From assembly GCA_033220425.1 (NCBI GenBank), contig CM065649.1, positions 3,348,001-3,412,000 of the forward strand: DNA of 64,000 nt, read 5' to 3'. Below are positions 3,219-42,386 of the stretch, piece after piece. The stretch comes from Lepraria neglecta (lineage: Eukaryota; Ascomycota; Lecanoromycetes; Lecanorales; Stereocaulaceae). Numbering within the stretch: position 1 is the stretch's first letter; each line of letters begins with the position of its first letter. The notes below the pieces were generated by a model. The model saw nothing but the letters and a program-made list of their open reading frames with translations. It made no database searches and was not told where the DNA came from. The position numbers and the translations under genes were made by a program.

Positions 3219-5851
3219 CTACCACTGCGTAGGTCCAAAGAACCTCCCCGGAGCCGAAGGATTCGGATTCGGATACCTAACCGCCGTATCCAAATTATCA
3301 GCATTATTATTCGCAGCACTCACACCCCACCAACTTGGCATATGGGTATTGGTCAAATTGACCGCTAGGATAATGACAATAGTGCAGATAGCCAATCCTA
3401 CATCCAAACCCGCGGATGTAATGTAATTGAAGCGCATCCACCAGCCTCGGTACTTGTTCCTGATGTGTTTGTTGAAGACATAGCCCACGATACCCCAGGA
3501 GAGGTAGTTCAATGGCGTGGCAGGCGGGATCTGACCGCTACCACCGAAGATGAGTGGCGCGGACAGGTACTTGAATGGCAGGCGGGGGAACATGCGGGCA
3601 AGAACGTAGAACAGGATTGGGGTCAGAATGCCCGCGAGCCAGAAGTACTGGAGGTTGGCGTACAGACTTCCGGGTGAGAAGATGCGTTGGGGACCGATGA
3701 GACCCCAGATGACGGAGGCGTTGAAGAAGACACGGCCATTGGGGCAGTTGAATTTGTTGGCTTGATGCTCGGTGCAAATGTCTGCGATGGCGCCTCCGAG
3801 GGCCCATTCCAGGACTCCGACTTGCACGATGCAGGCCCAGACGGTGGCGATTGTTTGGGCCATGAACATGGATCGCGGCGGGATTTTCATATATTGGCCT
3901 AGTTTGAGATCTTGGGTGAAGTAGAGCCCTTGGGCCATGGTGATGTAGCCGTATGTTTTGAATAACATCATGGCGATTGGGCGCCCTGGTTGAATATACC
4001 CAGTGATGAATTCGCTTGATGGAGGTCAGTCTCCTTGTCTTTCGGGAATTTCGCATAGTTAGACTTACGTGAAAACATTGAGACCAATCTGGACACTGGT
4101 CATGCCTTGAATCATGCCGATGGGGACAAACCAAACTGTGGAAATTATCAGAGCAACAAAGAAACCCCACCAATGCATCAGAGTCGGGTATCCGAGGCAG
4201 ACTCCTAGAGATATGGCGAGCATGGCCATGAATAAGGATAGGTACCACCACTGAGGCACGTCTTTGTATTTGCGCATCATTCGATAGTGGACATCTTCTT
4301 CATCCGTTCGCATGCTTCGAATCCTCTTCCATAGATCGGGACCATGGAAGATGGCTGTTTGCACTATGACCGCTGAAATAGTGGCAAAGGAAAGACCGTA
4401 GGTCAAAGCGAATGTAGTAGAGAGGAACAGAGGTGAGTAGGCTTCGTAGGCGGCCAAATCCAGGGTGAAATCTGAATTTAAGATGTTGGTCACATTGTAG
4501 AGGTTGCCGGTGTTGTCATAGCTCTGAGAGTCGCTGATTGGTAAGAAATTTGAATACCAAGTATTGGTGTAGTGAACGCCGATGGAAGTAAACCAGAAGA
4601 AGATGACCATTCCGATCAGAGTGTTCGCAATGGCGTGCCAAGGCGGAATCAGTGGGCTGTATGCGTATGCAGTGATCTGAGTCCAGTCGAAAGTAATTGG
4701 CAAGAGCGAGATCCCGGTCCAGCCACCAAAGAGTTGGTTGATAACAACATTGTTGGGTCGTATCCAGCAGGCGAAGCAGAAGACGCTCAGGAATGGCGCA
4801 ATAAAGCCTGGAAACCAGTACCAGCAAAACGAGCCTGCGAAGACAATGAAGAAGTATCTGTATCGCGAGATAGACCAGCCGTTGGTCTTGGCTGGATCGG
4901 TTCTCGACTGGTCGTGGAGGCCGTAGAAGAGGGCGGTGTTGATAAGACTTGTGGGCCAAATCATGGCAGCTGCATCCGTTCAGTAAAGCACGGAAAAATC
5001 AAAGTAGACTTCTCACCTGGCCAAACGAGTACCTTGCGGAATATGCCAGCCAATCCATAGCCAATCATCTGGGTAGATATGCACAGCAGTATGTTGAAGC
5101 CCCAACCAAAGTTTTGGTGATAGAATCCTCTCTGCGCTGTAAGAGTATCCGTAGCGTATGCCACACCTCCAGCCACATTGACGTTCGCCATAACCACAAT
5201 GATTGTATGCTCTTTCATATTGAAGGGGCAAGGGTTCAAGCTGAACGATCTTCCAAACAGGCGGAATTGGCGCGAGGGCATGGCGCGGTGCCAGGCGACT
5301 CCGAGAGGGTATGCGACCAACTGGACGGTCAAGGAGGTGATTGTGATGGCCGGTTGGCGCAAGGCGAACAACGCGTTCAGGCCTGATGCGATGGTTGTCA
5401 AGAGTATGCCAAGCACCCAGGCTCGAACAGTGTTAATCGGCATATCCTCGTCGTACTGCGAAAAATGCTCAGTCTAACTCAAGAATGGGGATAAAGGCCT
5501 ATTCACGTTGCGGACAGCTGCGCGCACTTCTGGGTAGGGCGAGTTTTCCACAAGCTCGTCAACAAGACGGAGCTCTCCAGCAAGATTGTGCTCATCTGTA
5601 GCTTCTTCAATGCCCTCCTCCAGTTCCTCTGGGAGGTTGGGGTCCCATCGATGCTTCTTCTTAATCTGCCTCAGTTGTGTATTGGCCTCGACTTCAGAGA
5701 AGTGCCTGCCATCTGCGCCTGTTGTAACGGCTGAGGTGTCCTTCTCTTTAATATCCTTCACATCCTCCGTGGAAGCTGACTCGGGGCTTAGATTAGCTGC
5801 ATTGGCTGGAGGCTTCTGACCGAAGCCGAATCGCTTCGCAAAGGACGACAT
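3219..5851 (-). CDS. Oligopeptide transporter, OPT family
   Basis: Plasma-membrane proton-coupled oligopeptide transporter (OPT, PF03169). There are four exons: 5851-5507, 5455-5017, 4969-4069 and 4014-3219. The three introns (51, 47 and 54 bp) have GT and AG ends, and phases close to an 826-residue product, a normal length for fungal OPTs. Residues 1-100 are hydrophilic. The family signature ENSPYPEVRAAV comes just before the first membrane segment (NTVRAWVLG), with AGIFRKVLVWP, TEFITGYIQPGRP and a long C-terminal hydrophobic series following. The start is the ATG of MSSFAKRFGFG at 5851. No disruption is seen, and base composition is normal although the gene lies 5 kb from a RIP-mutated nest. 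Substrate (tetra/pentapeptides, glutathione or metal chelates) cannot be told from sequence. Confidence 0.93.
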
Positions 5852-10808: not shown

Positions 10809-11191
10809 TCGCTACAGTGGGACTGTGGGTTAGTGTGTCTCATGATCAGATGCGGTTTCAGCCATGCGCCATGACCATGGGCCATAGCGAGAGATCCGTG
10901 CTTCCTGAGAGCACTATTTGTATGAGCATCCCACCAGCAGTTGGCTCTTCAGTCGAGTTCATCTCTTTCAGAGCCATAGCAGTTCTTTCCCGCCCACCCG
11001 CACCTTATACATAGCCTATATATAGCCTATCTACACTCCAGGTCTATGCCGCCTAGGCATGGGAGTTTTCTAGCGCTGGGGCACCTGTTGTAGCCTTTCT
11101 AGGCCTGCTAGCCCTGGCGTTAGACCGCCCAAGCATCTATTTACATATCCACTTGTGCCGGTGTGTATAGCTTCAGGAGTGAGAACACTAA
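10809..11191 (+). repeat. Solitary AB terminal repeat of the Ngaro/DIRS-like family, inverted copy
   Basis: 383 bp starting TCGCTACAGTGGGACTG and ending GAGTGAGAACACTAA. It is the reverse complement of 11750-12132 (also 383 bp) with mostly RIP-type differences, and retains many TpG/CpA sites. It is contiguous A plus B with no coding part next to it. It could be a recombination remnant of a second element or one end of a deleted plus-strand element. Confidence 0.8.
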
Positions 11192-11749: not shown

Positions 11750-11879
11750 TTAGTGTTCTTACTCCTGAAGCTATATACACCGGCACAAGTGGATATGTAA
11801 ATAGATGCTTGGGCGGTCTAACGCCAGGGCTAGCAGGCCTAGAAAGGCTATAAAAGGTGCCCCAGCGCTAGAAAACTCC
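11750..11879 (-). repeat. Split direct repeat B2
   Basis: 130 bp, same orientation and length as B1 (12133-12262). Together with A2 it forms the uninterrupted 3' terminus. A further 73 bp (11880-11952) joins B2 and A2. Confidence 0.78.
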
Positions 11880-11952
11880 TATACCTAGGCGGTATAGACC
11901 TGGAGTGTAGATAGGCTATATATAGACTATATATAAGGTGCGGGTAGACGGG

Positions 11953-12132
11953 AAAGAACTGCTATAGCTCTAAAAGAGATGAACTCGACTGAAGAGCTAA
12001 CTACTAGTAGGATGCTTATATAAATAGTGCTCTCAGGAAGTACGGATCTCTCGCTATAGCCTATAGTTATAGCGTATAGCTGAAACCGTATCTAATCATG
12101 AGATATACTAACCTATAGTCCTACTGTAGCGA
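11953..12132 (-). repeat. Split direct repeat A2
   Basis: 180 bp, matching A1 at 29040-29219 in length and orientation, ending CTGTAGCGA on the plus strand. It is more RIP-mutated than A1. Confidence 0.78.
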
Positions 12133-12262
12133 TTAGTGTTCTCACTCCTGAAGCTATATATATCGGCATAAGTGGATATGTAAATAGATGCTTAGGCGGT
12201 CTAATACTAGGGCTAGCAGGCCTAGAAAGGCTACAACAGGTGCCCCAGCGCTAGAAAACTCC
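12133..12262 (-). repeat. Split direct repeat B1
   Basis: 130 bp starting TTAGTGTTCTCACTCC on the plus strand and directly abutting A2. It ends where the recombinase-side sequence of the outer element begins. Confidence 0.78.
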
Positions 12263-13604
12263 CAAACAACACCCAAATGACGCCCCCGTAGAGGGTTTCC
12301 GAGGAAGGCCTCGCAGGGTAGCTCCTGGCGAGTATCGCCAGTACTAGCGCTACTGGTACCGATATAATACTATAAGTATTCGCTTAGGATAAGTGACTAT
12401 ATATAGACGATAGGAGTCCGACTTCTATCGCCCTAGTAGCTGGATTTCTTCGTCACTAAGGCCTACCTCTTATATAGAGGTAGCGGCCCCCCTACGGAAG
12501 GAGTATCCTAAATAATAACCTTCTACTTGAATAAATAGCGTAATACCTTAACTGCGTATACTCTATCACCGGAAGCTATAATAGTAAGGGTAATACCCTG
12601 CCTAAAAGGGTCCGTTTTTAATACTAGGAGGGTAAGCTCTAGATAGTTCTTATATAGCCTTACTGAGCGACGAGTTAGGAACTACTAGCTAAATTCGTGA
12701 TTATTATAATCTTTGCGGTATAGGTAAACTCCTCTATACGGAGGAATACGGCGAATATAAGGTAAAAGACCGTATATAATATTAAACTAGTCTCGTTATA
12801 CTAGTTAAAATAAGGGAGGATTTATAGGAGTAGATCTTTAGTAATAGAATATCTTTCTTTTATCCCGGCCTCGCCCTATAGGCGTTGTATACCCGCTATT
12901 ATATATTCTAATTATAGGTTATAAAATACTATAAGGCCCCTATAGCCTATATCTATATATATTAATCTAACGTCTATCAAATAGGCCTTAACTATCTTTA
13001 CCTTAACCCGTTTCGTACTAAGATCTACTATCTAACTAGCTAATAAGTTTACCGTCGCTAGAAAGGGAGGTATACTCCCCCTAAGTATATAATAGGTAAT
13101 ATATAACTGCGTTGGTATAGTATACGTTTTTCGGGTTTTTATTACTAACCCCTACTATAGGAGTCGAGCGGCTTCTCGTAGTAGTATAGTCTAACTATAC
13201 CAAGATTATAGTAGGTCCCGCCCTGACTTGGCGGGGATATAGCTAGGTAACCTAGCTAAGGGTATCTATTAGCGATTTTTCGATATCGGAATCGCGAGAG
13301 GTTATTAGCCAGTTGGTTGGCTCCTATTAGGATCTATTCCGGAACTAAATAGATGTTATATCTAGCCGTAAATATAGCTATATCCCTTAGTAGGGCTATA
13401 GCTGGTCCACGGATCGAGGATTTATATAGCCTATAGATATAGATATTATTATCGCAATAAAGGGTTAATTTTAATCCCCGGAGTCGTTCTAACTATAGCT
13501 ATATCGTATAAAGAACAGCCTTCATTTCTTTAAATCATATATCTTTACGATAATAGTATATAGTAACCGGTATACTAAAGACGTCCTAGACCGAGTATAA
13601 ATAG
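12263..13604 (-). mobile_element. Outer element, 3' coding part with tyrosine recombinase
   Basis: RIP-mutated minus-strand remnant. Between about 13150 and 12700 it keeps blocks typical of fungal tyrosine recombinases of DIRS/Ngaro elements, including the pattern around FLRIEEFTYTAK and the preceding GIQRL.GEA..KER region. RNase H, expected just upstream in these elements, would fall at about 13200-13604 but I cannot see it clearly. Confidence 0.65.
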
Positions 13605-13973
13605 TATTAGAACCATTGGTTCTAACAGGACTATCCTGTAGGACAAGGTGCTATAGATAGGACTAGTAGCTGAAGCGATAAGCGCGATGAGCGCCGTGCG
13701 CTCATAACGCTTATAGATTGCTTGGCAGGATTTCTTATATCTATATATACGGGGCCCTACCTACCGTTTGGAATAGTATATTCAACTTGGTTAATCTTCC
13801 TGGTAGTTCTTGTACTATACTTTACTAGTTATTAATATAGAACGTATTAATTACCTATATCGACGAAGACTACCATTCTACCTGAGTGACTCCTCTCCTA
13901 TAGAAGTATAAGACATACGAACCTATACGTGGCTATCGCACCATTAGATATATAACTACTATAGGTCGTAACA
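13605..13973 (+). repeat. 5' LTR, Gypsy copy 1
   Basis: 369 bp, ending GTCGTAACA. It is more RIP-mutated than its 3' partner. Confidence 0.88.
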
Positions 13974-16900
13974 CTTTGAATACCCTAAGGGATGAGTTCT
14001 TTAATAACTATAGGTAGAAACCCTACCCCAAGCACCTTAACGGTTACTGGCTAGAGACGCTATACTATAGACGAAGGATCTAGAAAAAGGATCAAGGTTA
14101 TAGTACTAGACCTATACTACGGAGATAGGGACAAGCTTAAGCCATAGCTCACGCAAGTATAACTATACCTACTATTCCAGGGAGACTTGCTCCTAGTAAC
14201 TAGATATACTACCTTCGCTATATTATACCTATGAGAATAGGCCTAGAAGTAGGTCGAACCTTTCCTAAAGAAGTATATAGAAGATAACGATAAGGATAGC
14301 GATATTAAATCTTAGATAGAAAGTATACCAAAGTTTATAGTCGAAATCCGCCGTATATTCAGACCTTCTAATAAGGTAAATATAGTAATATATATTATTT
14401 AGTATATAAAATAGAAGAAGTTAGCGTTAGAGTTCTTAACTTAGTTTCAAATATATACTACTAAGATAGACTAGGATAATAATACGCTAATAATAATATA
14501 TTATTATAGCCTTAAAGATAATATTAAAGATAAGCTTATAAGATTCGGAGGAGTAGTTAATACTCTAGATAGACTTATTAAAAATGCGATCGAGATTAAT
14601 AATAAGCTATTTAAATAATCTATAGAGAAGCGGTACGATAGAGGAGTTAGCAGAACCTAATACGAGAGATTCTTCTTAAAAATAAAGAATTACCGATAGG
14701 ACTACGGGGAATATAATACTTACTATAGTATAGTACTAATAGAGATTAACTTTATATAGATAGGAAAGAAGAAAGGAAACTTTAAAGGGAAAAAGTAGTA
14801 TAGAGGAAAGAAAGTAATTACTTACTATAGCTATAGTAAACTGGGCTATATAGCTAGAGACTACAGGTCGAAGAATATAGTATACCGACTATAGATTAAT
14901 ATAATAGAAGGAGGACCTCTAGATAACAAGGAAGACTCTAAAGAAATATAGTAACCCTACGATAAAGAAGAATTCGATTAGGATTCGGAAGATAATACCT
15001 TTGAATTAGAATTTAATAAAGAAGTATAGAGGTATTACTATAGGGATAGTAATAGATCTTAATAATATAAGACGGATTAGGAATAGCGGAAAGCTAGCCT
15101 AGAGAGACTAGCGTTAATACCCGAATCTAGATCTACTATATCCTAAGTAGAAGGAAAATTGCCGGAGATTAAGGAACCTTAGTCGGACGAAGATAAATAT
15201 AAACTCTTTAATAAAATTAAAAGTAAGGTATAAGGAATACTAAATAAGTAATTATCTATAAAACCCGGATAGGAAGAACCTATACGAGACTATTAATACG
15301 ATAGAGAATATTAGTAATATAGTAAAGTTCTATATACTGAGTATATATTACCTAATTACTTACTATATAGAGAGGAAAGGAACCGCCTAGTGAAAGAATA
15401 TATAATACCTCTACTAAAGAGAACCCCTTATAGAGAAATCTAGTAGTATAAGTATAAGGAAGATAGGTACTAGTAGTATCTTATAAGCAAGAGGAAGTAT
15501 TACTACTTTCTATACTTTATAGATAAGTAGGAAAAAGAAAGGAATAACTTACTTAAAGTCTTTAAGAAAGGAGCTTATAACTAAGTACTATAGTATAGCT
15601 ATCTATACGATAGATATACTCTATATAAGGCTATAAAGGAAATATACGGATTCCTACTATTATAGGGAAAAGAGTAATCCCTTATACTACGGGGAAGTAT
15701 AAGGAGATTAATATATTATTCCCTAAATAATAACTGTGTTCCGCTTAGTACTATACTTATATTATTATACTAGTAAATATTAATAGATAGCAGACCGTAG
15801 CGATAATAGATAGCGGAGCTACAGGAAATTTTATCTCAAGGAACTTAGTAGATTCAAGTAGCCTACCGACCCGAAAGAAGAAATTATTCTACGAACTTCG
15901 CCTGGCTAATAGGTTAGTATTCTTAATAGGAAAAGTAGAGGAGGAAACTTACTCCCTACTAGTAATAATTCAGTAATACTATAAGGAGATTATATTCGAT
16001 ATAGTTAGGATAGCTACTTATAATATTATTTTAGGAATATCTTAGTTAAATAAATATAACCTAGAAATTAACTAGAAGATAAAAGTACTTAAATTCGGAC
16101 GATCTAGAGATATTACTAGTATTAGACCTATTAGTTAATAGTAGACAATAATAGATAAGAGAAAGAACCGAAGACTAGTTAAAGTATATATTACTTTATT
16201 CTTAAATAATAAGAGCGGCTTCTAAGAGAGAAGGCTTGACTCCTTAGTTACTAGTAAAGGTTAGTAGGATACTAAAGAGAGAGCTATTAAAGGGAAAGAC
16301 GAACCTTCTATAACCTCTTAAGAATATAAATAGTAGATATACCTATTTAAGGAAGAGACGAGCGTAAAAGTATTACCTAAGTACTAACTATAGGATTATA
16401 AGATCGAACTCGAGCCTAGTAAGGCGCTAATATTTAGACCTATCTATATATTATTAGAAAAGGAACTTACTATACTTTATAGGTATATTAATAAGAACCT
16501 TAAGAAAGGATTTATTCGGGAATCTAAATTACTAGTAGGTTATCTAATCCTCTTCGCGCTAAAGAAGGACGGAAGTCTAAGGCTATATATCGACTATCGA
16601 AAGTTAAACGATATTACTATTAAGAATTATTACCCTTTACTAAATATTAGCGAGCTATAGGATCAGCTCGGTAAGGCAAAGATATTTACGAAACTAGACC
16701 TTAGGGGCGTATATAATCTAATTCGGATAAAGGAAGGCGAAGAATAGAAAACTACCTTCCGGACTAGATATAGCTACTACGAGTACCTAGTAATACCGTT
16801 TGGACTTACTAACGTACTAGTAACCTGTTAAGTACTTATTAATAATATTATACAAGTATACTTAGATCGAATAGCGATAGCGTACCTTAATAATATCTTA

Positions 16901-19164
16901 ATTTACTCTAAGAATAAGGAAGAATACGTTAAGTATATATAGGATATTATCGAATACCTGTCGTAAGCGGGACTTCTCCTTAAACCGGAAAAGTGTAAGT
17001 TTTATAGAGACTCTATTAAGTTCCTAGGATTTATAGTTAGTATAAAAGGTATTAGTATAAGCCTAGAAAAGATTAAAGCTATAGCGGAATAGCCTATACT
17101 ATAGGATATTAAAGTAGTATAAAGCTTCTTAGGATTCGCTAACTTTAATAGGAAGTTTATTAAAGGCTACTTAAAGAAAGCGCTTCTACTTACGGATATT
17201 ACTAAGAAAGATATCGGATTTATATAGGGATAAGAATAATAAAAGTCGTTCGAAACGTTAAAAAAGCATATATAGATCCTCTAGTACTCTATACCTTTTA
17301 AGCCAACGAACCGGCTCGTATCGAAATAGATACCTCGGATCTCGTAATAGGAGTATATCTTTATCAAATAAAGGACTAAAAGTAGTATCTAGTTACCTAC
17401 TTTTCACGGAAGATATTAGTGGTAGAATAAAACTATAATATATATAACAAAGAACTACTTACTATAGTATATATACTTTAAAATTAGAGAGTATACGTAG
17501 AAAGCTACTTAGACTTAACTATCTTTACGGATTATAAGAACCTTCTTAACTTTATAATAACGAAGGAGCTAAATAGAAGATAAGTTAGATAGTTAGAACT
17601 ACTTAGATAATATAAGTTCAAGATAATCTATACCCTAGGAAAGGATAATAGTCGAGTAGATACGCTTAGTAGGCGATCGGACTATATAGAAGAAAAGAAC
17701 GTTACAGAACGACTAATCCTAAAACAAGAGACCGACGGATTATTAGTACCGTACTAGGTATTAGTAATAACCCTTTATATATTAGGACCTAATATAACTA
17801 ATAAGATTGTAAAGGCCTATAATAACGATATATTCGCAACAAAACTACGACAGGATCAACTAGATTTAGTATTACTTAAATATTAGGATAAAACTTACTT
17901 GTCTAATATATACGTTAAAGAAGTAATTAGAGATTACCACGATAACCCTTTATAAGGTTACCCTAGAGTATCTAAGACTATAGAACTCCTAGGATGAGGA
18001 TACGTAGCGCCGAAACTTCGGACACGTATCGAATAATATATCAAGGAATATATCTAATACTAGTAGAATAAGTCTATACGATATGTAAAATACGGGCAAA
18101 TATAGTTTACCCCGGTACTAGAGTTACTATAGGATAATATTATAATAGACTTTATAGTTAAACTACTACCCTCGAAGGACCTAGCTATATAGGATACCTT
18201 TAATTCGATTATAGTCATTATAGATAAGCTTACGAAGTATATAATTATAATACTATTCAAGGAGATATATAAAGTAGATTAGTTAGCCTTTATACTACTC
18301 GATAAGCTAATAAGGGATTATAGTATACCTAAGTCGATAATATCCGATAGAGATAAGTTATTTACTTCTAATTATTAGAGAACACTAATTAGAGTAATTA
18401 GAACTAAACTTCGGATATTAACGGCGTACTATCTATAAACTAATAGATAAATAGAATATACAAACTAGATAATAGAAGTATACCTAAGATATTATATAAA
18501 CTAAAAATAGGATAACTAGGTTTTACTACTTCTAATAGTATAACTGGTATATAATAATAAAAAGTCAGATATAATAGGCCTGATACTATTCTTTAATAAC
18601 TACGGAAAGAATATAAATATATTTCTATAACCTAGGGAAGGGCCTAATATAGAAAAAGCCTTAGTTAAGGTAGAAGAGCTAAGATATTTATATAAGGATA
18701 TATAAAAGATAATTAAAAGCTTAAATAATAAGTTAAAGGAGTATATCGATAGTAAAAGGAAGAATATTCCTCAGCTTAAAGAGGGGGATAAAGTATACCT
18801 CCTAATAAAAAATATAAAGACGACAAGACTAAGTAAGAAACTGGACTACGTTAAGGTTAGACTATTCTTGATTAAGAAGGTAAAGGGGGCCGTTAACTAT
18901 AAACTCGAGCTTCTACCTGACGCTAAAGTATATCCGGTATTCTATATCTTACTCCTAGAGCTAGTAGACTTAAATATACTACTCTAAGAAACGTTCTATT
19001 ATAATATTAAGGAAGAAATAGAGTATAAGGTCGAGAGGATCCTGGATAGAAGGAATCAGTTCTATCTAGTTAAGTAGAAAGGGTATAATAAAACGGAAAG
19101 TACCTAGGAACCTCTTAGGAACCTTACCGGGAATTATAGGGAATACCTATAAGAGTTTTATTAG

Positions 19165-19690
19165 AGATAAGAGAGGACTAGTCAAAGCTCTCGGGGCCTT
19201 CCAAGCCGGCGGGGAGATCGAATTACTTAGAGCCGACGTTGAATATTAAACTATCGGGGTTACCGGAAGGGAGCTCCTTATCCCTCTCTAACTCCTTAAT
19301 ATTCTATAACTCGCGCTTAACCAGCCTTTTCTCTTTATCTTAGATATAATCAAATTATAATTAAAGGCGTATAAGTTTCGCCTGCGTTTCCTTTATTTCT
19401 AACTAAGTATTATTACGAACTTTCTTAATACGACGTATCTCGTCGACGGATATAACTAGGTCGCACTTCTTGCCTATAGTAACGTAGTTAGAATAATAGT
19501 CCGAACGAACGCCTACTAAGTATTACTTATTGCCCTTCGTATATAGAGTACAAGGATATATTACGAACCTGGATAATTCGCTAGAGAGTTCTTTACGACG
19601 GACGAGGGGATCTTTAGAACGGATATTTCGACGAGGAGGTATAAAGGATAGATAGTTTCTCGGGACGAGAAATCTGAAGGAGGGGGCTAG
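19165..19690 (-). other. Antisense coding-like segment between pol and 3' LTR, copy 1
   Basis: Downstream of the chromodomain, the minus strand carries a coding-like, charged, probably coiled-coil stretch ending near the 3' LTR. The same segment is present in copy 2 (27720-28214). An extra antisense gene at this position is known from some fungal Gypsy elements; the identity here is inference. Confidence 0.4.
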
Positions 19691-20059
19691 TATTAGAACT
19701 ATTGGTTCTGACAGGACTGTCCTATAGGACAAGGTGCTATAGACAGGACTAGTAGCTGAAGCGATAAGCGCGATGAGCGCCGTGCGCTCATAACGCTTAT
19801 AGATTGCTTGGCAGGATTTCTTATGTCTATATATACGGGGCCCTGCCTACCGTTTGGAACAGTGTGTTCAACTTGGTTAATCTTCCTGGTAGTCCTTGCA
19901 CTATGCTTTACTAGTTATCAATATAGAACGCATTGATTACCTACATCGACGAAGACTGCCATTCTACCTGAGTGACTCCTCTCCCACAGAAGCATAAGAC
20001 ACACGAACCCATACGTGGCTATCGCACCATTAGGTATACAACCACCGTGGGTCGTAACA
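19691..20059 (+). repeat. 3' LTR, Gypsy copy 1
   Basis: 369 bp, preceded by the purine tract and followed by AATAG. It keeps many TpG/CpA sites that are lost in the 5' LTR. Confidence 0.88.
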
Positions 20060-20064
20060 AATAG

Positions 20065-22082
20065 GCTAGGTGATTAAGAATGTAGCCCTCTATACTAAGC
20101 CTCCTAGAGGTATCAGTCTATATATACTACGATAGTCGACTAACGACGTGACGTAGTAGTTTAAGGCTATTCCAGTCCTTTAGGAAGATATACTACTATA
20201 GTAGATTAGCCTTTATGGCTGCGGTGATATATAGAATAGCTATTTACCTCCGAATTATATTAAAAAGTCGCCTTAAGAAGGCCCTTCCTAGAACTATAAT
20301 TTTAGTAGTAAATAACAGAAAACCGACTACTGACTCAAGCTTCGAATATAGGATTATAGGCCTTTTAAGGAGGTATTGCACTATATTTCTTACCCTATCT
20401 AGCTTATCTAGAGGGAGTCGTGCCTACACAAGGATACTATCGAATTTAATTCCTATAAAGTCGGCTTTTATACCTCTCGTATCCTTCGAATAGTTAACTA
20501 ACAGGCCTAATTCGTTATATACTTGATCGAATTAATAGCTGTATACGATAGCGTCGGCTTATAGTACTAGAATAGCGAAGAAATCGTCTAAGTAGTATAA
20601 TACTATAGCCTATAGTAACACTGCGATTATAATCTAGTTAACTACCTTTACAAACAGGTTAAAGAGGAACGGTACTATATGTAAACTAAAGGGTAGATAG
20701 CGTTCTTTCCAGTAGAAACTATTATAGTAGAAATCTAGTAGCTACTAGTCTAAAGTAGCTACTAGAATATAATAAAAGGCGTCTTTCAGGTCTCGCTTAA
20801 CGAATTAAGCCCCTAGACCTTGTTATAGCAGCGTATCTACGGCGTTATCGTACGTTATATACTCTAAGATACCCTAATCGTAAGGTATACTATTATTGAC
20901 TAAGCTGCTATATAGAAATAAGAGGTTATAAATACGTCTCTAGCCCCTATTATGCTTCGGGACCAAGCCTAGCGGCGAATAGATATACCGAGGCTCTGTC
21001 TAATAGTCTACTTGAGTTAACTAGTTATACTAAAGCTGTTTTTGAAGGTCCGTAGTTAATATATCTAGTGCTACACGTACTAATTAGTAGTTTTGACTGA
21101 GGTATTAGATATCTATACCTCTATACCCGATTTTTGCCCCCTTCCGAAGAATAGCCGCTAGGGTCTTGGCGAAGGTTTGATCGGGGTGATTCTTTAACTA
21201 TTTATACTAACTATTAACGCGTAACGGGCCCTAATAGGGTAGATCTAGATCGGATAGATCGACGAGTAAGTATAGAAAACCTTCTGCTACGCATAGTAGC
21301 GATATAGGTACCTACGGGTACTCTAGGAGTTATTCCGACTTAGAAATTCGATTTACTAGTAGTATTAAGTTAGCGTTATTCGAGGCCGAGTTAGCCCTTA
21401 AGTACGTATTCGCTAGGTAATTCTACTAATATATAGAATAGATATAAAGATACCTGCAGCGGTCGCGTAGATAGTAGCCGCTATTAAATAATCTATACGT
21501 GAATAGGCCTGAAGAGGAGGATTTTAAGGTACTACTATCTACGTATAATCTAGTATCGCCCTATACGGATATCCTTCGGACTAAGAGGTCTAAGTAGCGT
21601 CTATTATCGATCGACCAGGCTACTAGATTATCCTAGCTACTCAGGATACGTATAGTAACGAATACGTGATAGTATACGCGGATAGAGTTAAATTTATAGT
21701 ATATATATAGCTCCGTAAGGCGAAGGCGGTAGTCCGAAAGGGCTACCTGCAACCGTATACTTACTATAGGGTATATATAGTAATAAACGGCCTAGCTATA
21801 TACCTTAAAACACTGCAGGAGGTATACCAACCCGTTAGTCTCCTAGATTATATCGCTATCTATACGATTAGTATAGTTATAGGCTAGCTTTATAAGGTAT
21901 TCCGTTTTAAATATTCTAAAGAAGATTTACTTAAAATACTTAATATTAATAGTACGATAGCGCTTATAAAGACTAAGAAAGGGTTTCTTACCTTCGATAT
22001 ACCTAAAAGAGACTATTAGGCTATCCCTCTCCTCCGAGTCTATACTAGAAATAGATAAGTAGTAATAACGATAACGGCGACG
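20065..22082 (-). mobile_element. Outer element, central part with reverse transcriptase
   Basis: Minus-strand RIP-mutated remnant. The catalytic YLDDF box lies at about 20594-20580. Downstream come the LPLDKLDR and GRAFLRRLF blocks that distinguish DIRS/Ngaro reverse transcriptases from those of LTR elements. Upstream (about 21900-21000) the frame is recognisable as coding but unassigned. Confidence 0.7.
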
Positions 22083-22495
22083 TGTTAGAACTAGAGGGTT
22101 CTAACAGGACTGTCGCGAAGGACGTATAACTTCGGGCAGGACAGACAAGTAAAGCGATGATCGTAGTGATCGTAGTGCGAGTAATACTATCAGGAATGAT
22201 GATCGTAATAATCGCAGTACGAGCAATACTATCAAGAGTGCTTGGCAGGATTTCTTGTGTCTATATATACGGGGCTCTACCTACTATTTAGAATAGCGTG
22301 TTCAACTTGGTTAATCTTCCTGGTACTCCTTACACTATACTTTACTAGTTATTAATATAGAATATATTAATTACCTATAACTACAAAGACTACTATTCTA
22401 CCTGAGTAACTCCTCTCCTATAGAAGTATAAGACGTATATAACCTATACCTAGTTATCGTACCGTTAGGTAAACGACTAGACGTGGGTTATAACA
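22083..22495 (+). repeat. 5' LTR, Gypsy copy 2
   Basis: 413 bp, beginning TGTTAGAAC. It contains a short internal duplication around GATGATCGTAGTGATCG. Confidence 0.88.
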
Positions 22496-25400
22496 CTTTG
22501 AACACCCTAAGGGATAAGTTCTTTAATAACTTCAGGTAGAAACCCTACCCTAAGTACCTTAATAGTTACTAGCTAGAGATACTATACTATAGACGAAGGA
22601 TCTAGAAAAAGGATCAAGGTTATAGTACTAGACCTATACTATAGAGATAGGGACAAGCTTAAGCCATAGCTTACGCAAGTATAACTATACCTTCTATTCC
22701 AGGGAGACTTGCTCCTAGTAACTAGATATACTACCTTTACTATATTATACCTATAAGGACGGGCCTAAAAGTGGGTCGAACCTTTCCTAAAGAAGTATAT
22801 AGAAGATAACGATAAAGACGGCGACATTAAGTTATAGATAGAAAGTATACTAAAGTTTATAGTTAAAATCCGCCGTATATTCAGACCTTCTAATAAGGTA
22901 AACGTAGTAATACGTATTATCTAGTATATAAAGTAGAAGAAGTTAGCGTTAGAGTTTTCAACTTAGTTTTAAATATATACTACTAAAATAGGCTAGGATA
23001 ATAATACGCTAATAATAATATATCGTCGAGGCCTTAAAGATAATATTAAAGATAAGCTTATAAGATTCGGAGGAGTAATTAATACTCTAGACGGACTTAT
23101 TAAAAATACGATCGAGATTAATAATAAGCTATTCAAATAATCTATAGAGAAGCGGTATAACGGAGGAGTTAGCGGAACCCGATATAAGGGATTCTTTTCG
23201 AAAACAAGGAATTACTAATAGGACTATAGGGAACGAAATACTTACTATAGTATAGTACTAATAGAAATTAACTTTATATAGATAGGAAAGAAGAAAGGAA
23301 ACTTTAAAGGGAAAAAGTAGTACGGGGGAAAGAAAGTAATTACTTAATATAGCTATAGTAAACTAGGCTATATAGCTAGAGACTACAGGTCGAAGAATAT
23401 AGTATATCGACCGCAGATTAATATAATAGAAGGAGGACCTCTAGATAATAAGGAAGACTCCGAAGAAATATAGTAAATATATAATAAAGAGGAATTCAAT
23501 CAGGATTTAGAAGATAATACCTTTGAATCGGAATTTAATAAGGAAGTATAGAGATATTATTATAGGGATAGTAATAGATCTTAATAATATAAGACGGATT
23601 AGGAATAGCGGAAAGCTAGTCTAGAGAGACTAGTATCGATACCCGAACCTGGATCTACTATATCCCAAGTAGAAGGAAAATTACTAGAAACTAGAAAACC
23701 TTAATCGGATAAAGATAAATATAAACTTTTCGACGAAATTGAAGGGAAAGTATAAGGTATACTAAAAGAGTAATTATCTATAAAACCCGGATAGGAAGAA
23801 CCTATACGAGACTATCGATATAATAGGGAATATTAGTAATATAGCGAGATTCTATATACTGAATATATATTACCCGATTATTTAGTATATAGGGAAGAAA
23901 GAGGCCGTCTAGCGAAAGAATAAATAGTACCTCTACTAAAGAGGACTCCTTATAGAGAGACTTAGTAGTATAAGTATAAGGAAGATAGATACTAATAGTA
24001 TCTTATAAGTAAAAGGAAGTATTAATACTTCCTATACTTTATAGACAAGTAGGAAAAGGAAAGAAATAACTTACTTAGAGTCTTTAAGAGAGGAGCTTAT
24101 AATCAAGTACTATAGTATAGCTACTTATACAACGAATATATTCCGTATAAGGGTATAAAGGAAGTATATAGATTCCTACTATCGCAGGGAAAAGACTAAT
24201 CTCTTATACTACAGAGAAGTATAAGGAGATTAATACGTTATTCTCTAAACAACAATTGTGTTCCGCCTAGTACTACACTTATATTATTATACTAGTGAAT
24301 ATCGATAGATAGCGGACTATAGCGATAATAGATAGCGGAGCTACAGGAAATTTCATCTTAAGGAACTTAGTAGACTCAAGCGGCCTACCTACCCGAAAGA
24401 AGAAATTATCCTACGAGCTACGCCTAGCCGATAGGTTAGTATTCTTAATAGGAAAAGTAGAGGAGGAGATATACTCCCTACTAGTAATAATTTAGTAATA
24501 CTACAAGGAGATTATATTCGATATAGTTAGGATAGCTACTTATAATATTATTTTAGGAATACCTTAGTTAAATAAATATAACCTAGAAATTAACTAGAAG
24601 ATAAAAGTACTTAAATTCAGATAATCTAGAAATATTACTAGTATTAGACCTATTAGTTAATAGTAGACGATAATAGATAAGAGAAAGAACCGAAGACCGG
24701 TTAAAGTATATATTACTTTATTCTTAAATAGTAAGAGTAACTTCTAAGAGAGAAGGCTTAACTCCTTAGTTACTAGTAAGGGTTAGTAGGATACTAAAGA
24801 GAGAGCTATTAAAGGGAAAGACGAACCTTCTATAATCCCTCAGGAATATAAATAGTAGGTATACCTATTTAAGGAAGAGACGAGTATAAAAGCGTTACCT
24901 AAGTACTAACTATAGGATTATAAGATCGAACTCGAACCTAGTAAGGCGCTAATATTTAGACCTATCTATATATTATCGGAAAAGGAACTTACTATACTTC
25001 GTAGGTATATCGATAAGAACCTTAAGAAAGGATATATTCGGGAATCTAAATTACTAGTAGGTTATCTAATCCTCTTCGCGCTAAAGAAGGACAGAAGCTT
25101 AAGACTATATATCGACTATCGAAAGTTAAATGATATTACTATTAAAAATCGTTACCCTTTACTAAATATTAGCGAGCTATAGGATCGGCTTAGTAAGGCA
25201 AAGATATTTACAAAACTAGACCTTAGAGGCGTATATAATCTAATCTAGATAAAAGAAGGCGAAGAATAGAAAACTACCTTCCGGACCAGATATAGCTACT
25301 ATAAGTACCTAGTAATACCGTTTAGACTTACTAACGTACTAGTAACCTACTAAGTACTTATTAATAATATTATACGAGTATACTTAGATCGAATAGCGAT

Positions 25401-27719
25401 AGCGTACCTTAATAATATCTTAATTTACTCTAAGAATAAGGAAGAATATATTAAGTATATATAGGATATTATCGAATACCTATTATAAGCGGGACTTCTC
25501 CTTAAACTAGAAAAGTATAAGTTTTATAGGGACTCTATTAAGTTCCTAGGATTTATAGTTAGTATAAAAGGTATTAGTATAAGCCTAGAAAAGATTAAAG
25601 CTATAGCGGAATAGCCTATACTATAGAATATCAAAGTAGTATAAAGTTTCTTAGGATTTGCTAACTTTAATAGGAAATTTATCGAAGGCTACTTAAAGAA
25701 AGTACTTCTACTTATAGATATTACTAAAAAAGGATATAGGATTTATATAGGGATATAAATAATAGAAGTCGTTTAATACGTTAAAGAAAGTATATATAGA
25801 TCCTCTAGTACTCTATACCTTTTAAGCTAACGAACCGGCTTATATTAAAATAGATACCTCGGATCTTATAATAGGAGTATACCTTTATTAAATAAAGGAC
25901 TAAAAGTAGTATCTAGTTACCTACTTTTTAAGAAAGATATTAGTAGTAGAATAAAACTACGATATATACGATAAAGAACTACTTACTATAGTATATATAC
26001 TTTAAAATTAGAGAGTATATATAGAAAGCTACTCGGACTTAACTATCTTTATAGATTATAAGAATCTTCTTAATTTTATAATAATAAAAGAGTTAAATAG
26101 AAGATAAGTTAGATAGTTAGAACTACTTAGATAATATAAGTTTAAGATAACCTATACCCTAGGGAAAGATAATAGTCGAGTAGATATACTTAGTAGGCGG
26201 TCGGACTATATAGAAGAAAAGAATATTATAGAACGACTAATCCTAAAACGAGAAGCCGACGGATTATTAGTACTATATTAGGTATTAGTAATAACCCTTC
26301 GTATATCGGGACCCGATACGACTAATAGGATCGTAAAGGCCTACGATAACGATATATTCGCAACAAGACTACAATAGGATTAACTAGATTCGGTATTACT
26401 TAGATATTAGGAAAAAACTTACTTGCCTAATATATATATTAAAGAAGTAATTAGAGATTACTACGATAACCCTTTATAAGGTTACCCTAGAGTATCTAAG
26501 ACTATAGAACTCTTAGGACGAGGATACGCAGCGCCGAAACTTCGGATACATATCGAATAATATATTAAAGAATATATTTAATACTAGTAGAATAAGTCTA
26601 TATAATATACTAAGTACGGGCAAATATAGTTTGCCCTAGTACTAGAATTACTATAGGATAATATTATAATAGACTTTATAGTTAAACTACTACCTTTAAA
26701 GGACCCGGCTATATAGGATACCTTTGATTTAATTATAGTTATAGTAGATAAACTAATAAAGTATATAATTATAATACTATTCAAGGAGATATATAAAGCG
26801 GATTAATTAGCCTTTATATTACTCGATAAGTTAATAAGGGATTATAGTATACCTAAGTCGATAATATCCGATAGAGATAAGTTATTTACTTCTAACTATT
26901 AGAAAACGCTAATCGTAGTAATTAGAACTAAACTTCGGATATTAACTATATACTATCTATAGACTAATAGATAAACGGAATATATAAACTAAATAATAGA
27001 AGTATACCTAAGATACTATATAAACCTAAAATAAGATAACTAGGTTTTACTACTTCTAATAGTATAACTAGTATATAATAATAAGAGGTTAGATACGACA
27101 GGTCTAATACTATTCTTTACTAACTACGGAAAGAATATAAATATATTTCTATAACCTAGGGAAGGACCTAATATAGAAAAAGCCTTAGTTAAGGTAGAAG
27201 AGCTAAAGAATTTATATAAGGAGATATAAAGGACGATTAAAAGCTTAAATAATAAGTTAAAGGGGCAGGTTAATAATAAAAGAAAGAATATTCCTTAGCT
27301 TAAAGAGGGGGATAAAGTATACCTTCTAATAAAAAATATAAAGACGACGAGACTAAGTAAGAAACTAGATTATATTAAGATCGGACTATTCTTAATTAAG
27401 AAGGTAAAGGGGACTATTAACTATAAACTCGAGCTTCTACCTAATACTAAAGTATATCCGGTATTCTATATCTTACTTCTGGAGCTAGTAGACTTAAATA
27501 TACTACTCTAAGAAATATTCTATTATAATATTAAGGAAGAAATAGAGTATAAGGTTAAGAGGATCCTAGATAGAAGAAATTAGTTCTATCTGGTTAAATA
27601 GAGAGGGTATAACGAAACGGAAAGTACCTAGGAACCTCTTAGGAACCTTGCGGGGAACTATAGGGAACGCCTATAAGAGTTTTATCGGAGATAAGAGAAG
27701 ACTAGTCGAAGCTCTTAGG

Positions 27720-28214
27720 GACTTCTATCCTATCGGGGAGATCGAACTACTCAGACGAGACGTTGAATATCAAGTTACCAGGAGACTTAGGGGCGGTACG
27801 TTAGTCCTCCTCTAATTCCTTTATATTCTGTAGTTCTCGGTCTACTATATTCTTCTTCTCCTTCTCGACGGAATTTAACTATACCTGAAGGCGTACTAAT
27901 TTTATAAGCGCATCAGTGACTTCCTCGCGTAATTCGTTATATCGTTTTTTAACACGACGTATTTCAAGGGGCGACACTATAAGGTTATACTTCCGGCCAC
28001 TAGTAATATAACTCGAACATCTATCGGAATTAGTACCTATAAGATACTATTTGCTATTGGTAACGTATCGGGAGCAAGGTCGTATAACGAAGTCGGAAAG
28101 TTTACAGGCCAGCTCCTTCGAACGGATGGCTGGGTTAGATAATTATTTAGTACGAATAGGTGGTATAAAGGATGGATGGTTTCTCGGGACGAGAAATCTG
28201 GAGGGGGGAGTTAG
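27720..28214 (-). other. Antisense coding-like segment between pol and 3' LTR, copy 2
   Basis: Homologous in position and sequence to 19165-19690 of copy 1 and likewise less damaged than pol. It ends at a G-rich purine tract before the 3' LTR. Confidence 0.4.
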
Positions 28215-28627
28215 TGTTAGAACCAGAGGGTTCTGACAGGACTGTCGCGAAGGACGTATAACTTCGGGCAGGACAGGCAAGTAAAGCGATGATCGCAGTG
28301 ATCGCAGTGCAAGCAATACTATCAGGAATGATAATCGTAATGATCGCAGTGCGAGCAATACTATCAAGAGTGCTTGGCAGGATTTCTTGTATCTATATAT
28401 ACGGGGCTCTGCCCACTGTTTAGAACAGCGTGTTCAACTTGGTTAATCTTCCTGGTACTCCTTGCACTATACTTTACTAGTTATCAACATAGAACGCATT
28501 GATTACCTACAACCACGAAGACTGCCATTCTACCTGAGTGACTCCTCTCCTACAGAAGCATAAGACGCACGCAACCCATACCTGGTTATCGCACCGTTAG
28601 GTAAACGACCAGACGTGGGTCGTAACA
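28215..28627 (+). repeat. 3' LTR, Gypsy copy 2
   Basis: 413 bp, same length as the 5' LTR but with far fewer RIP-type changes. Confidence 0.88.
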
Positions 28628-28632
28628 CGACG

Positions 28633-29039
28633 GTGACTATATAACTTATAGACTTAATAGCGATCCTAGTAATCGCGCTGGTCCTTTAGCGCCGCTAGGC
28701 GGTATTCTAACTTGCGAATTTAATCATAGTAACTAGGAGGAGATATTTCGTCGATGAGGCTTAGGCTGATAGTTCCCGAAGAGGTAGCAGATACCTGTAA
28801 TTCGAGGGGGGGGGGTATAGTATCCCTCCGAGTAGCTGTTTTAGCTTATTTGCGGTTCTTGGAGGAGGTCTTAGGGGCCGTCTTGGAGGCTTTCTTAGAG
28901 GTAGCTAATTGACGTATAGCGACGGCTATAACTAGATAATACTGAGGTGTTTATACTTAGAAAGAGGGGGGAAGAATATAAGTATAGATGGGATAAAAGG
29001 ATAGATGGACTAATATATATATAGGCTTAATTACTGTAA
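28633..29039 (-). mobile_element. Outer element, 5' coding part
   Basis: Minus-strand remnant with a basic low-complexity stretch (KKASKTAPKTSSKNRK), an uninterrupted run of ten G (28806-28815) and proline-rich flanks. It probably starts the first open frame of the Ngaro-like element. Confidence 0.5.
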
Positions 29040-29219
29040 AAAGAACTACTATAGCTCTAAAAGAGATAAACTCGACTGAAGAGCTAACTGCTGGTGGGAT
29101 GCTTATATAAATAGTGCTCTCAGGAAGCACGGATCTCTCGCTATGGTCCATGGTCATAGCGTATGGCTGAAACCGCATCTGATCATGAGACACACTAACC
29201 CACAGTCCCACTGTAGCGA
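29040..29219 (-). repeat. Split direct repeat A1
   Basis: 180 bp at the right edge of the nest, the 5' terminus of the outer element. It matches A2 (11953-12132) and is much less RIP-mutated than A2. Confidence 0.78.
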
Positions 29220-30270
29220 GTTGTCTAGTCCTGGAAATTTCGATGGTAACGAGCAGAACTGAGGTACGTGGCGGATCATAGATAAACGTCTCTCCCAACT
29301 TTGACTTCAAGAGAGATCCAAATGGCTCTGAAGTTGCGTAAGCAAACGCAGAAAGAACTAGGAGAGCGGGTGTATATAGCTACTTCGTGGACGATCGTAT
29401 AATGAAGAGACATGGACAAGGCGGAGAGGGATTGACTGGCTCACCATGTGGGGAAGGCATAAATGTGCGGATCGTTGATCCTATTCACACAACTCTATAC
29501 ATTATATTTACATTCAGTCCTATGGCTCCCGAGGTACAAGTCTTGTTTGAAGTCAAGAGCAGTCGACAATCAACATAATTATTGAGCCAGGCATTTACGG
29601 CTCACTTTCTGCAATCTATCATTCGACAGCTGAAAGCGATGTTTTCTCTTTTGGGGAAAACGAGTTTGTTTTTGGCCCAAGCTAATACCTTTGTAGTCGG
29701 AGAGTAAACACCCGTAAATGTTCTCGACAGTCCGAATTCCATTGGATGGGCGAAGAGAACTTTCGGAGGCAAGAAAAATCTTCATCCTCGATGACGCAAG
29801 TGATATCTGCGATATTGACCTGAACATGGGAGCTTATTATTGAATACGTACTACCCTGTCGGTGATGAGCCTGGGTGAAAACATCTTTGAATCCCCTCGT
29901 AGTATGCTAGCGGTCAAGGCCGAGGAGGTTGTGCCGCTTCTCAATACGAGGTTTAATAGTAATTATGATGGTAGCGCAGTGGCACGAAACTGTGAGAGCT
30001 TGGGCCAGTAAGAGGGTAGATCTGAAGGAGTTGTTCTCATTTGCCGGTCACGCGACTCTGGAGAAAACGGCAAAGATCGTCAGGCCTTCAAACTTGACCG
30101 CCTCTTTCTATGTTGTTCGGCGGACTAAGTTCACTGCTTCATGTGACTACTACAGCCTCCAAGTGCTGTTTAACGGGGTGTTACTGCGTGTAAGATATTC
30201 CCAGATGTTTTGATGAGCGTCGGCTGGGTCGCCAGGGTAGAGATCGCAATCTTCACCCGGTTGGTGAACG
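29220..30270 (+). pseudogene. Degenerate coding remnant, right half of the disrupted host locus
   Basis: Plus-strand frames with coding character broken by stops and shifts: FDFKRDPNGSEVA (about 29307), MAPEVQVLFEVKSS (about 29523), ARKIFILDDASDICDIDLN (about 29772) and SMLAVKAEEVVPLLNTRFN (about 29903). Stops in the last frame (TGA in a YY.IR context, TAA in Q-like contexts) are what RIP makes from TGG and CAA. I do not recognise the family. It is best explained as the continuation of 11192-11749. Confidence 0.4.
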
Positions 30271-40021: not shown

Positions 40022-42386
40022 TCAATTCCGTTTACGCCTTGAAACTTCCCTGTCTCGCTCCCTACGCTCCTCTTCCTTCCTGAATCTCTTCCCTTTCGCC
40101 AAATCCTCCAATTTACGGCCTTTGCCATCAATATCGCAAGTTTCTGGCGTCACATACCGCGTAAGCAAAGCACCGACCAACATCACCACTACGAACCTAG
40201 AGTAAGTAAGCAGCGGAATTCAGGCGGGATATCTAGGTACCTCTCACGTGATCAGTGTAACACCCAGGCTCCTGTTGCTTGTGACCTTTGTCACCACAAT
40301 CTGTCCCAGCACTGATCCAAGTTTACCGCAGGCAGCGGAGATGCCATAGCAGGTACATCGATACCGGGTTGGGAATGCTTCAGCGGCTATCTACTCTCTG
40401 TCAGCGGCGTCCCGGACGTGCAGTCCCCAGCAGCCCAAAACTCACGATGAAGGTGGTCGTGTTTGGACCTAGAGAAGTCAAATGGTCAGCTTTTGCAGTT
40501 CGCACCTTCTTTTACATGACTACTCACCAAGGTTGTAGAACAGCTGACAAATCCCATAAAGAACCACGATTGCCGCATGGGCATTTGTGCTGGGCAGTGT
40601 TACATACAAAGCACCAACTATAATGAAAAGGCCTCCCAGGACCGCAAAACCGCCCATTTGGATCTTCTTCTGGCTGTAATGGTGCATGACAAATATCGCA
40701 ATACAGCTGCCAAGTAAAGCACCAATGGATGTTGCCTCCATTATGTGTCGTTCACCACTAATGAGCTTTGCGTAGGGTGGCTGACCTGGGCCACTCCCCT
40801 CGCCGAACATTGTCGGTACGAAGCTCGAGCTATTAACTCCCAATAGATAGAAGGTAAAGTCCAGCAACATCCAAGCAGCGGATGTGGCAAAGAGATCGGT
40901 CCAGTTGCCGTCTTCGAACATGTATTTCATGAAGTCCGCGCGAGAAGCTAGAACTTGATGAGGATCTTCGAGTGCTTCCACCACTCCTCCGCCGGTTTGG
41001 ATGGTATATTCCTCAATGGAATTGTGCGAAAAATGGTGATCATGTCCAAGCATTGGCTGAGGTCGATGTACGCCTGGATCATGTTGCAACTTTCCGATAT
41101 ACCCAGTTCCCGATCCGCTTTTGACAAGCGCTTGTTTTGGCGCAAATTCACGTTCGTCCATTTGTGTCGAGTCCCCGTTGTCAGTCATGGGAGAGTGGGG
41201 GTTATCACTGGAGCCGAAGTATCCCTTGGCATACATGGCTTCGTTGCTGTCGTTTTGAATGTCAAGCATGTAATAGATCTATATCATAAACAGTCAATGA
41301 CCCAAGACTCTGTGAAACTCTTGAGGGAGGGCAGAAAAAGTTCACCCACCGACTCTGGTATAGTAAGCCGAAATACTATTGCTACTGCTGCTGGCACGGC
41401 ACCAAGGCCAGCGACCAGTCGCCACATTCTGTCCACTGTTCGAGCACATTCCATTCCCGCAAGATCAGTAGCATTGACAGAGCAAGATACGGCGCCGGTG
41501 GCTGTTGAGACATAAGATTTGAAGCCCGCTGTTACGGCGAACGCCATCAATACAGCGATTAGTTGCCCCAATGGTTGGCATATGAATACAGCCGCCAACA
41601 TCCGGGCCCTGTACTTTGTGGGAGCGAACCTGACACAGATCAAATCCGATACATCAAAATGTGCAAGGTGTACCTACTCGGCAGTAATGACAGCACTTAG
41701 TGGGTCTAGTGGTTCAGTAAGTTGTTTTGCATCTCCAAGATTGGAAGATGTGTAGTTTAAGTGCATCTCAAGAGATGACTAGCTGGGGAAACTACTCACA
41801 ATCTGCCCCTATGCCTACACCCATGACCAACCTCCAGAAGATAAGTAGAGCAATGATTGACATAGATCCATTGACTCCTGTGGCTGCCGTTGCGAGGCCC
41901 AAGGAGGCGGTGATTGTGACGATAAGCTCCAGACCATACATTTTTCTTCGGCCATACCGATCGGCCAAAAGACCGAAAACGACTTGCCCGATCATGGAAC
42001 CAATCAGAGTGGCAGTATTCATCCCAAGCTGATATCTTGTCGGGAATTTGCCTTCCCAGTAGATGATAGAGAGCATGGGAATAACGGTATTGATGGAGAA
42101 GATCTAGCGCAATCTTTCTGAGCTTCATGTCTTTTTCTGAACGAGAGGACATTTAGAGACAGACATACATCGTAAGCATCAGTCAGGAAGCCAATCCCTG
42201 CCACAAGAACAATCCACCACCCGAAGCCGGATTTCTCCACAGAGTAGAGAACCAGATTCCGCCTTTCTTGCCATGTCTACACAACGATTAGGACTTGGGA
42301 TCTTCTCTTGCGCCAGCGCATCGTACCAGATAGTAATTGAAGCCTTTTGAATGATCGACCCAAAAGCGCGGCCACGAGAAGTGCAT
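40022..42386 (-). CDS. MFS inorganic phosphate transporter, PHO84-like
   Basis: A proton-coupled phosphate transporter of the plasma membrane by family. There are nine exons: 42386-42327, 42276-42169, 42103-41800, 41705-41678, 41629-41350, 41278-40528, 40468-40446, 40390-40248 and 40196-40022. All phases close to 623 residues. Motifs: KSGFGWWIVLVAGIGFLTDAYD in TM1, GLLADRYGRRKMYG (MFS motif A), GADYPLSAVITAEFAPTKYR across three exons, GPNTTTFI, and AEAFPTRYRCTCYGISAACGK. A long hydrophilic loop lies between TM6 and TM7 (about residues 265-340) and the tail is strongly charged (RKEEERRERDREVSRRKR). Exons of 28 and 23 nt are unusually small but needed for the conserved motifs. The start at 42386 depends on a predicted 50-bp first intron. 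Confidence 0.88.

Follow-up and report, generated by a model that had tools for sequence, protein, structure and literature searches.

Split direct repeats and exact ends point to a Ngaro-type retrotransposon, with numerous solo units, in the ascomycete Lepraria neglecta

Ngaro retrotransposons, which carry a tyrosine recombinase, are described as having the arrangement A1-[open reading frames]-B1A2B2, encoding reverse transcriptase (RT), RNase H, and recombinase, and lacking a methyltransferase (PMC3783388, PMC8547959). A 2013 survey of 177 fungal genomes placed them in Basidiomycota, with one truncated ascomycete copy, that of Neosartorya fischeri, described as being without terminal repeats (PMC3783388). 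Further ascomycete reports include a complete Ngaro family in Zymoseptoria tritici (PMC4502367), one Ngaro counted in a table for the reference strain of that species (PMC7181583), repeat tables for four Sporothrix genomes, three with 98-126 Ngaro and one with none (PMC9281073), and 12 Ngaro in each of two columns of a Hortaea repeat table (PMC7601665). We analyzed a 64,000-nucleotide stretch of the Lepraria neglecta genome (contig CM065649.1, positions 3,348,001 to 3,412,000; hereafter the window) and conclude with high confidence that it holds a dead Ngaro-type tyrosine-recombinase retrotransposon; the genome shows repeat-induced point mutation (RIP). The genome's ribosomal protein L3 has its best solved relatives in chains 7r81, 8oo0, and 7olc, from Neurospora and Chaetomium, followed by yeasts, and on this one protein the host is most likely a filamentous ascomycete; a search for 5.8S rRNA returned no match. 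In view of the Zymoseptoria, Sporothrix, and Hortaea reports, it is not the first ascomycete Ngaro.

The window element shares the repeat order, the RT-RNase H and recombinase content, and the lack of a detectable methyltransferase with described Ngaro, and differs from the fungal elements of the 2013 survey in having 50 B1/A2 joints in the genome, 73 bp of spacer separating A2 from B2, and a RIPped host (PMC3783388). It shares with the Zymoseptoria family the description as a complete element of this superfamily in an ascomycete (PMC4502367). DIRS1-like elements resemble it in a proposed circular intermediate and in inserting at a short matching site with no duplication of the target, but differ in having inverted terminal repeats, an internal complementary region, and a methyltransferase (PMC3266345).

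In the window, A1 and A2 (180 bp each) are 89% identical and B1 and B2 (130 bp each) are 92% identical. All four lie in one orientation with B1 directly abutting A2, and we recover each at the position given by the original prediction, an earlier reading of this DNA from its letters alone. Read along the minus strand, the element runs from A1 through the coding remnants to B1, A2, the 73-bp spacer, and B2; the spacer was absent from that earlier account. The internal joint reads ACACTAA/TCGCTA (slashes mark joints and element borders), a copy of the two outer ends joined together. Terminal repeats are direct, not inverted, both here and in other copies.

The arrangement recurs throughout the genome (42.0 Mb in 11 contigs searched, the window lying on C4). 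At least 40 copies of the B2-spacer-A2-B1 block are present at 92-100% identity (40 scored of 198 candidates), and 10 uninterrupted copies among 20 loci span 4,569-4,573 bp with the same A1...B1A2B2 order. The original prediction named, as a finding that would count against it, A and B repeats unrelated to the element borders in other copies; this is contradicted, as A1 begins flank/TCGCTA at 16 of 16 ends and B finishes ACTAA/flank at 25 of 25 (one of them the solo unit of the window) among ends passing a filter on match length (250 bases or more for A1, 380 or more for B) and on reaching near the end. RIP-tolerant patterns find the B1/A2 joint at 50 places, B ends at 200, and A starts at 191, with 0 matches to the reversed controls in each case. 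A coding/B1 boundary adjoins 41 of the 50 joints. The family has left dozens of long copies and roughly a hundred very short ones.

The coding capacity is best read in copy L033, whose stop-to-stop frames comprise a 359-aa gag-like frame with a cysteine/histidine cluster near its end, a 403-aa RT, a 170-aa RNase H, and a 342-aa recombinase. The tyrosine recombinase lies on the same strand as, and 3' of, RNase H, and the two frames overlap in different reading frames. The RT frame matches RVT_1 (Pfam, E=2.6e-12), and in copy L034 the end of RT and RNase H share one open frame of 373 aa. Acidic motif residues of the RT-RNase H part were picked out by eye, and in the recombinase (aa 176-325) we take the words R, K, HxxR, W, and Y to be tyrosine-recombinase motifs. 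The four L033 frames have no methyltransferase or DDE integrase match at E<=10, and the remaining matches are weak and unrelated. Mapped onto the window, the L033 frames fall between A1 and B1 on the minus strand, in agreement with the RT and recombinase-like blocks assigned there by the original prediction, and all are broken by stops; relative to other copies, the window recombinase also lacks about 96 bp near 12514-12526. One PF00589 match, on C7 (L036 3423-4172, E=0.07), was rejected as a false positive: by eye its frame resembles part of a DEAD-box helicase, and no element parts accompany it.

Insertion of this family leaves no target duplication at clean empty sites, one for a long copy and one for a solo unit. 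The joined flanks of long copy L022 match Gypsy sequence in the window (14341-14540) without a gap through all 200 columns, with 91.5% identity, which implies the absence of a duplication there, and those of solo L043 match L012 over 100 of 100 ungapped columns at 86%. Across 49 flank pairs, end sharing amounts to 2 bp or less in 45. The target consensus is ACTAY/Y, with A, C, T or A, A, Y, and Y at positions -5 to +1 in 23, 28, 37, 34, 36, and 39 of 48 sites, respectively (L060 is excluded, as it shares a host site with L049). The preference is strongest for A at -2 (34/48, p=5.5e-11) and C at -4 (28/48, p=1.9e-7) and extends to +1 (Y 39/48, p=2.5e-4), these p-values being uncorrected for 100 positions; within 50 bp, no position beyond -6 to +12 reaches p<0.01. 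Solos and long copies prefer alike, with A at -2 in 24/33 and 10/15, respectively. Except at -1, the motif resembles the element's own B end, ACTAA/T, a likeness that would follow from the recombinase joining a circular B/A joint to like sites. A weaker preference for T and A at +9/+10 (23 and 25 of 48 sites) may reflect a further arm of the site that the recombinase uses.

The Ngaro assignment is supported by the repeat order, the exact ends, the succession of RT, RNase H, and recombinase, the methyltransferase not being found, and insertion without target duplication at the empty sites read. Chance repeats are ruled out by the recurrent blocks and by the 50 joints against none in reversed controls. 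The wording of the original prediction, Ngaro/DIRS-like, stands in its Ngaro part, on order, ends, domain content, and insertion mode, and falls in the narrow DIRS-like sense of inverted repeats and a methyltransferase. We rejected a DIRS1 identity on the direct terminal repeats and the methyltransferase not found in the L033 frames, and a PAT identity on the latter, even with split direct repeats of the PAT kind present. A PAT- or DIRS1-type element that had lost its methyltransferase, and so was Ngaro by form alone, is quite improbable: such a loss has been proposed for a Caenorhabditis briggsae PAT lineage, making it Ngaro-like (PMC4157794), and PAT shares the split direct repeats, but repeats that are direct rather than inverted, together with four frames free of any methyltransferase match, speak against it. 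A long terminal repeat (LTR) retrotransposon or long interspersed nuclear element (LINE) remnant with coincidental flanking repeats is scarcely credible. In its favor, the RT resembles LTR- and caulimovirus-type enzymes (best E=0.004); among solved structures it comes closest to 8r0s (E=0.0038), an enzymatic polyprotein that we take to be a caulimovirus RT, followed at weak E-values by Ty3 and retroviral-type RTs. The original prediction had counted an RT placing with LTR elements as evidence against itself, but this resemblance does not discriminate between the readings, since 182 Ngaro instances are reported to cluster with LTR elements (PMC4157794). Exact ends in recurring A1...B1A2B2 copies, a recombinase domain in place of a DDE integrase, and two clean empty sites argue against such a remnant. 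The RNase H-bearing frame and the recombinase have no credible relative among solved structures, and a search of viral contigs for outgroup relatives returned none.

Several observations weigh against the Ngaro assignment, which is one of anatomy, domains, and insertion mode. The L033 RNase H frame matches RVT_3, RT_RNaseH, and RNase_H at E=0.0096-0.037, all under the cut-off, and its recombinase frame matches Phage_integrase at E=1.9e-5 with 24.9 bits against a cut-off of 27.1; matches from a PF00589 search of the genome are likewise under the cut-off. No copy among those with frames listed keeps all frames open. Nine of the 50 B1/A2 joints have no recognizable coding boundary beside them, nor any at 3 mismatches, a setting at which 12 reversed-control matches make its seven extra places meaningless. 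A match spanning an empty site was obtained for just 3 of 49 flank pairs within the DNA compared, and the third, that of L016 with L025 (185 columns, 81%), is gapped at three places, beginning 3 bp from the joint. Four of the 49 pairs share 3-4 bp (L038 3, L034 4, L049 and L060 4 each at one copied host site), readable as short duplications. The circular intermediate of the insertion scheme is inferred.

Two nested elements, named chromoviruses in the original prediction and confirmed here as LTR elements, interrupt the window copy where that prediction had placed them (Table 1), and both carry 5-bp target duplications. These are as expected for a DDE integrase and serve as an internal control: both insertions combine matching LTRs with a short target duplication, the marks of an LTR retrotransposon, and the Ngaro element does not. 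Element 1 contains a Tf2-1-like SH3 fragment (18706-18984, E=9.1e-8) and an aspartyl protease fragment (15791-15973, E=0.00023, under the Pfam cut-off), and element 2 a Tf2-1-like SH3 fragment (27299-27508, E=5.6e-9). G+C content per 2-kb window is 0.30-0.45 within 12001-30000, which covers the element and its Gypsy insertions, and 0.45-0.53 outside; the low values are as expected from RIP. Ordinary long frames elsewhere in the window look by eye like an oligopeptide transporter (3219-4979), a phosphate transporter (40520-41278), and a thiolase (54066-54962), all on the minus strand.

Table 1. Positions in the window of the Ngaro-type element, its parts, the insertions it carries, and the neighboring solo unit
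Feature	Coordinates	Strand	Remarks
A1, 5' end of Ngaro element, outer end 29219	29040..29219	-	180 bp, 89% to A2; TCGCTA at flank
gag-like frame, 5' part, broken	28630..28950	-	tblastn of L033 359-aa frame: 74% identity, 4 stops
Nested Ty3/Gypsy element 2, LTRs ~413 bp	22083..28627	+	flanks CGACG (22078-22082 / 28628-28632)
gag-like frame, 3' part (region of L033 Cys/His cluster)	21333..22055	-	70% identity, 7 stops
Reverse transcriptase, broken (YLDD in L033)	20121..21329	-	72% to L033 RT frame over 403 aa, 24 stops
Nested Ty3/Gypsy element 1, LTRs ~369 bp, inside RNase H part	13605..20059	+	flanks AATAG (13600-13604 / 20060-20064)
RNase H, broken	13148..13603	-	72% to L033 frame aa 19-170, 6 stops
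Tyrosine recombinase, broken	12347..13265	-	three pieces with 9, 3, and 3 stops
B1	12133..12262	-	92% to B2
A2	11953..12132	-	B1/A2 joint at 12133/12132 = outer ends joined
Spacer between A2 and B2, 73 bp	11880..11952	-	
B2, 3' end of element, outer end 11750	11750..11879	-	...ACACTAA at flank
Separate solo A-spacer-B unit, 383 bp	10809..11191	+	exact A start and B end, nearly RIP-free

We propose that a transcript running from A1 to B2 would be reverse transcribed, with the internal B1A2 segment supplying what the transcript ends lack and so letting the cDNA close into a circle, whose B/A joint the recombinase would then join to a genomic site like ACTAY/Y. RIP would afterwards have destroyed the reading frames of the window copy, and the two Gypsy elements, judging from their 5-bp duplications, probably entered later through a DDE integrase.

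The short copies are 383-bp solo A-spacer-B units, of which the genome holds roughly 100, an estimate obtained from the 200 B ends by subtracting two for each of the 50 joints and 3 for long forms. We read 43, which were first-listed, in listings of up to 100 places, or picked by pattern. The window solo lies 558 bp from the large element, on the opposite strand, and shows 1 difference from the majority sequence of the 43. RIP-type changes number fewer than 15 in 40 of the 43 solos (median 3). Among 24 long copies the median is 26, with 3 copies under 15, and five further joint-bearing copies have 15-41; the yardstick is the solo majority, which favors solos somewhat. Solo L084 has a truncated B end, so its difference count is not RIP, and L075 was left out of the alignment. 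Side observations concern L074 (355-962), a solo split by an insertion of about 600 bp whose B halves overlap by 3 bp, and L049 and L060, two RIPped solos whose flanks agree exactly on either side, so that they probably lie within copies of some other repeat that was duplicated once they had inserted.

Two accounts of the solos have to be weighed, and we lean somewhat toward the first, in which they are merely remnants of A1 x A2 recombination within long copies, like solo LTRs. Solo AB repeats are scattered in the Cafeteria Ngaro as well and are ascribed there to possible recombination (PMC8547959), 5 of 43 second-subfamily B segments adjoin a B1/A2 joint by coordinates, and transversions in L090 and L092 indicate that solos and joint-bearing copies share lineages. 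Set against this, the solos are little RIPped compared with the long copies, so that most did not arise from RIPped parents, and the distance from B1 to B2 is 383 bp and that from A1 to A2 about 4.2 kb, yet the units ending at B without A2-spacer-B2 number 3 against roughly 100 solos. Those three are L034 889-5079 and L038 966-5155, which are complete long units, and L035 3682-5428, which is also without A1 and an inner stretch. The other account, more tentative and in our judgment the less probable, is that the element consists of two mobile units, a long A-ORFs-B and a short A-spacer-B, with the recombinase's B/A site between them, the short one being helper-dependent and under the RIP size limit. 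The detection limit of RIP in Neurospora is about 400 bp. The recombinase could split a circle at its two B/A joints, giving one long circle and one of 383 bp, both of them insertable. In line with a two-unit element are the ends shared by short, long, and double forms, the few RIP-type changes in 40 of 43 short units, and a subfamily marked by T-to-G at site 152, found at 13 solo loci far from joints. Most solos would have formed before RIP reached their parents, through A1 x A2 recombination or through recombinase action between B/A joints.

The 13 T-to-G loci, found by a genome-wide pattern, all lie more than 20 kb from each of the 50 B1/A2 joints and more than 7 kb from A1 among the A1 matches listed; the pattern demands the G itself, so copies in which RIP altered it would escape. 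The eight of the 13 that were read all have the A-spacer-B form, with B truncated in one. The 24 long copies read all have T at site 152, and no change is listed there in the further five. If about 1 in 9 subfamily copies bears a joint (5/43 in the older subfamily), 0 of 13 would not be remarkable. Transversions confined to solos (25/43 solos vs 0/24 long copies, Fisher p=5e-7) were considered as further evidence, and the p-value was discarded for sampling bias, as most of the 24 long copies had been taken from the head of a ranking by similarity to the window copy. L090 and L092 carry between them three of the eight transversions once thought confined to solos, and the apparent excess is at least partly a product of long-copy sampling.

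A two-unit element predicts tandem short units, which the nine boundary-less joints could include. All five further joint-bearing copies, those of the second subfamily, fall among these nine, a result that cuts both ways and leaves our weighing of the two accounts as it was. In L089 (C2) an A start lies about 4.2 kb upstream, as in a long copy; the others of the five, L090 and L092 included, may be either long copies or tandem short units. As a side observation, the boundary-less joints include L088, L090, L091, and L092, and each of the nine could be an old long copy, a rearranged copy, or a tandem of short units.

A parallel for the short units is SIRE of Trypanosoma cruzi, which corresponds to the A2-B2 region of VIPER plus a short internal piece of its own, as the 383-bp unit does here (PMC6681497); SIRE and VIPER differ in belonging to another host kingdom and another element group, and the mobility of SIRE is stated there as an open question (PMC6681497). 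Among literature titles on Ngaro solo or split repeats, non-autonomous forms, and RIP, drawn mostly from outside the subscription literature, none concerns RIP escape by such units.

The family described here is a new Ngaro member in a host group, the Ascomycota, where Ngaro is thinly documented. Its joints, exact borders, end-like target motif, and readable empty sites make it a good data set on Ngaro insertion. The 383-bp units bear on the question raised by SIRE and VIPER, whether A2-B2 units are mobile or remnants (PMC6681497), and a genome with RIP suits that question, since RIP has left its mark on the long copies while apparently sparing most of the short ones. We regard the solo units as the part of this finding most worth following.

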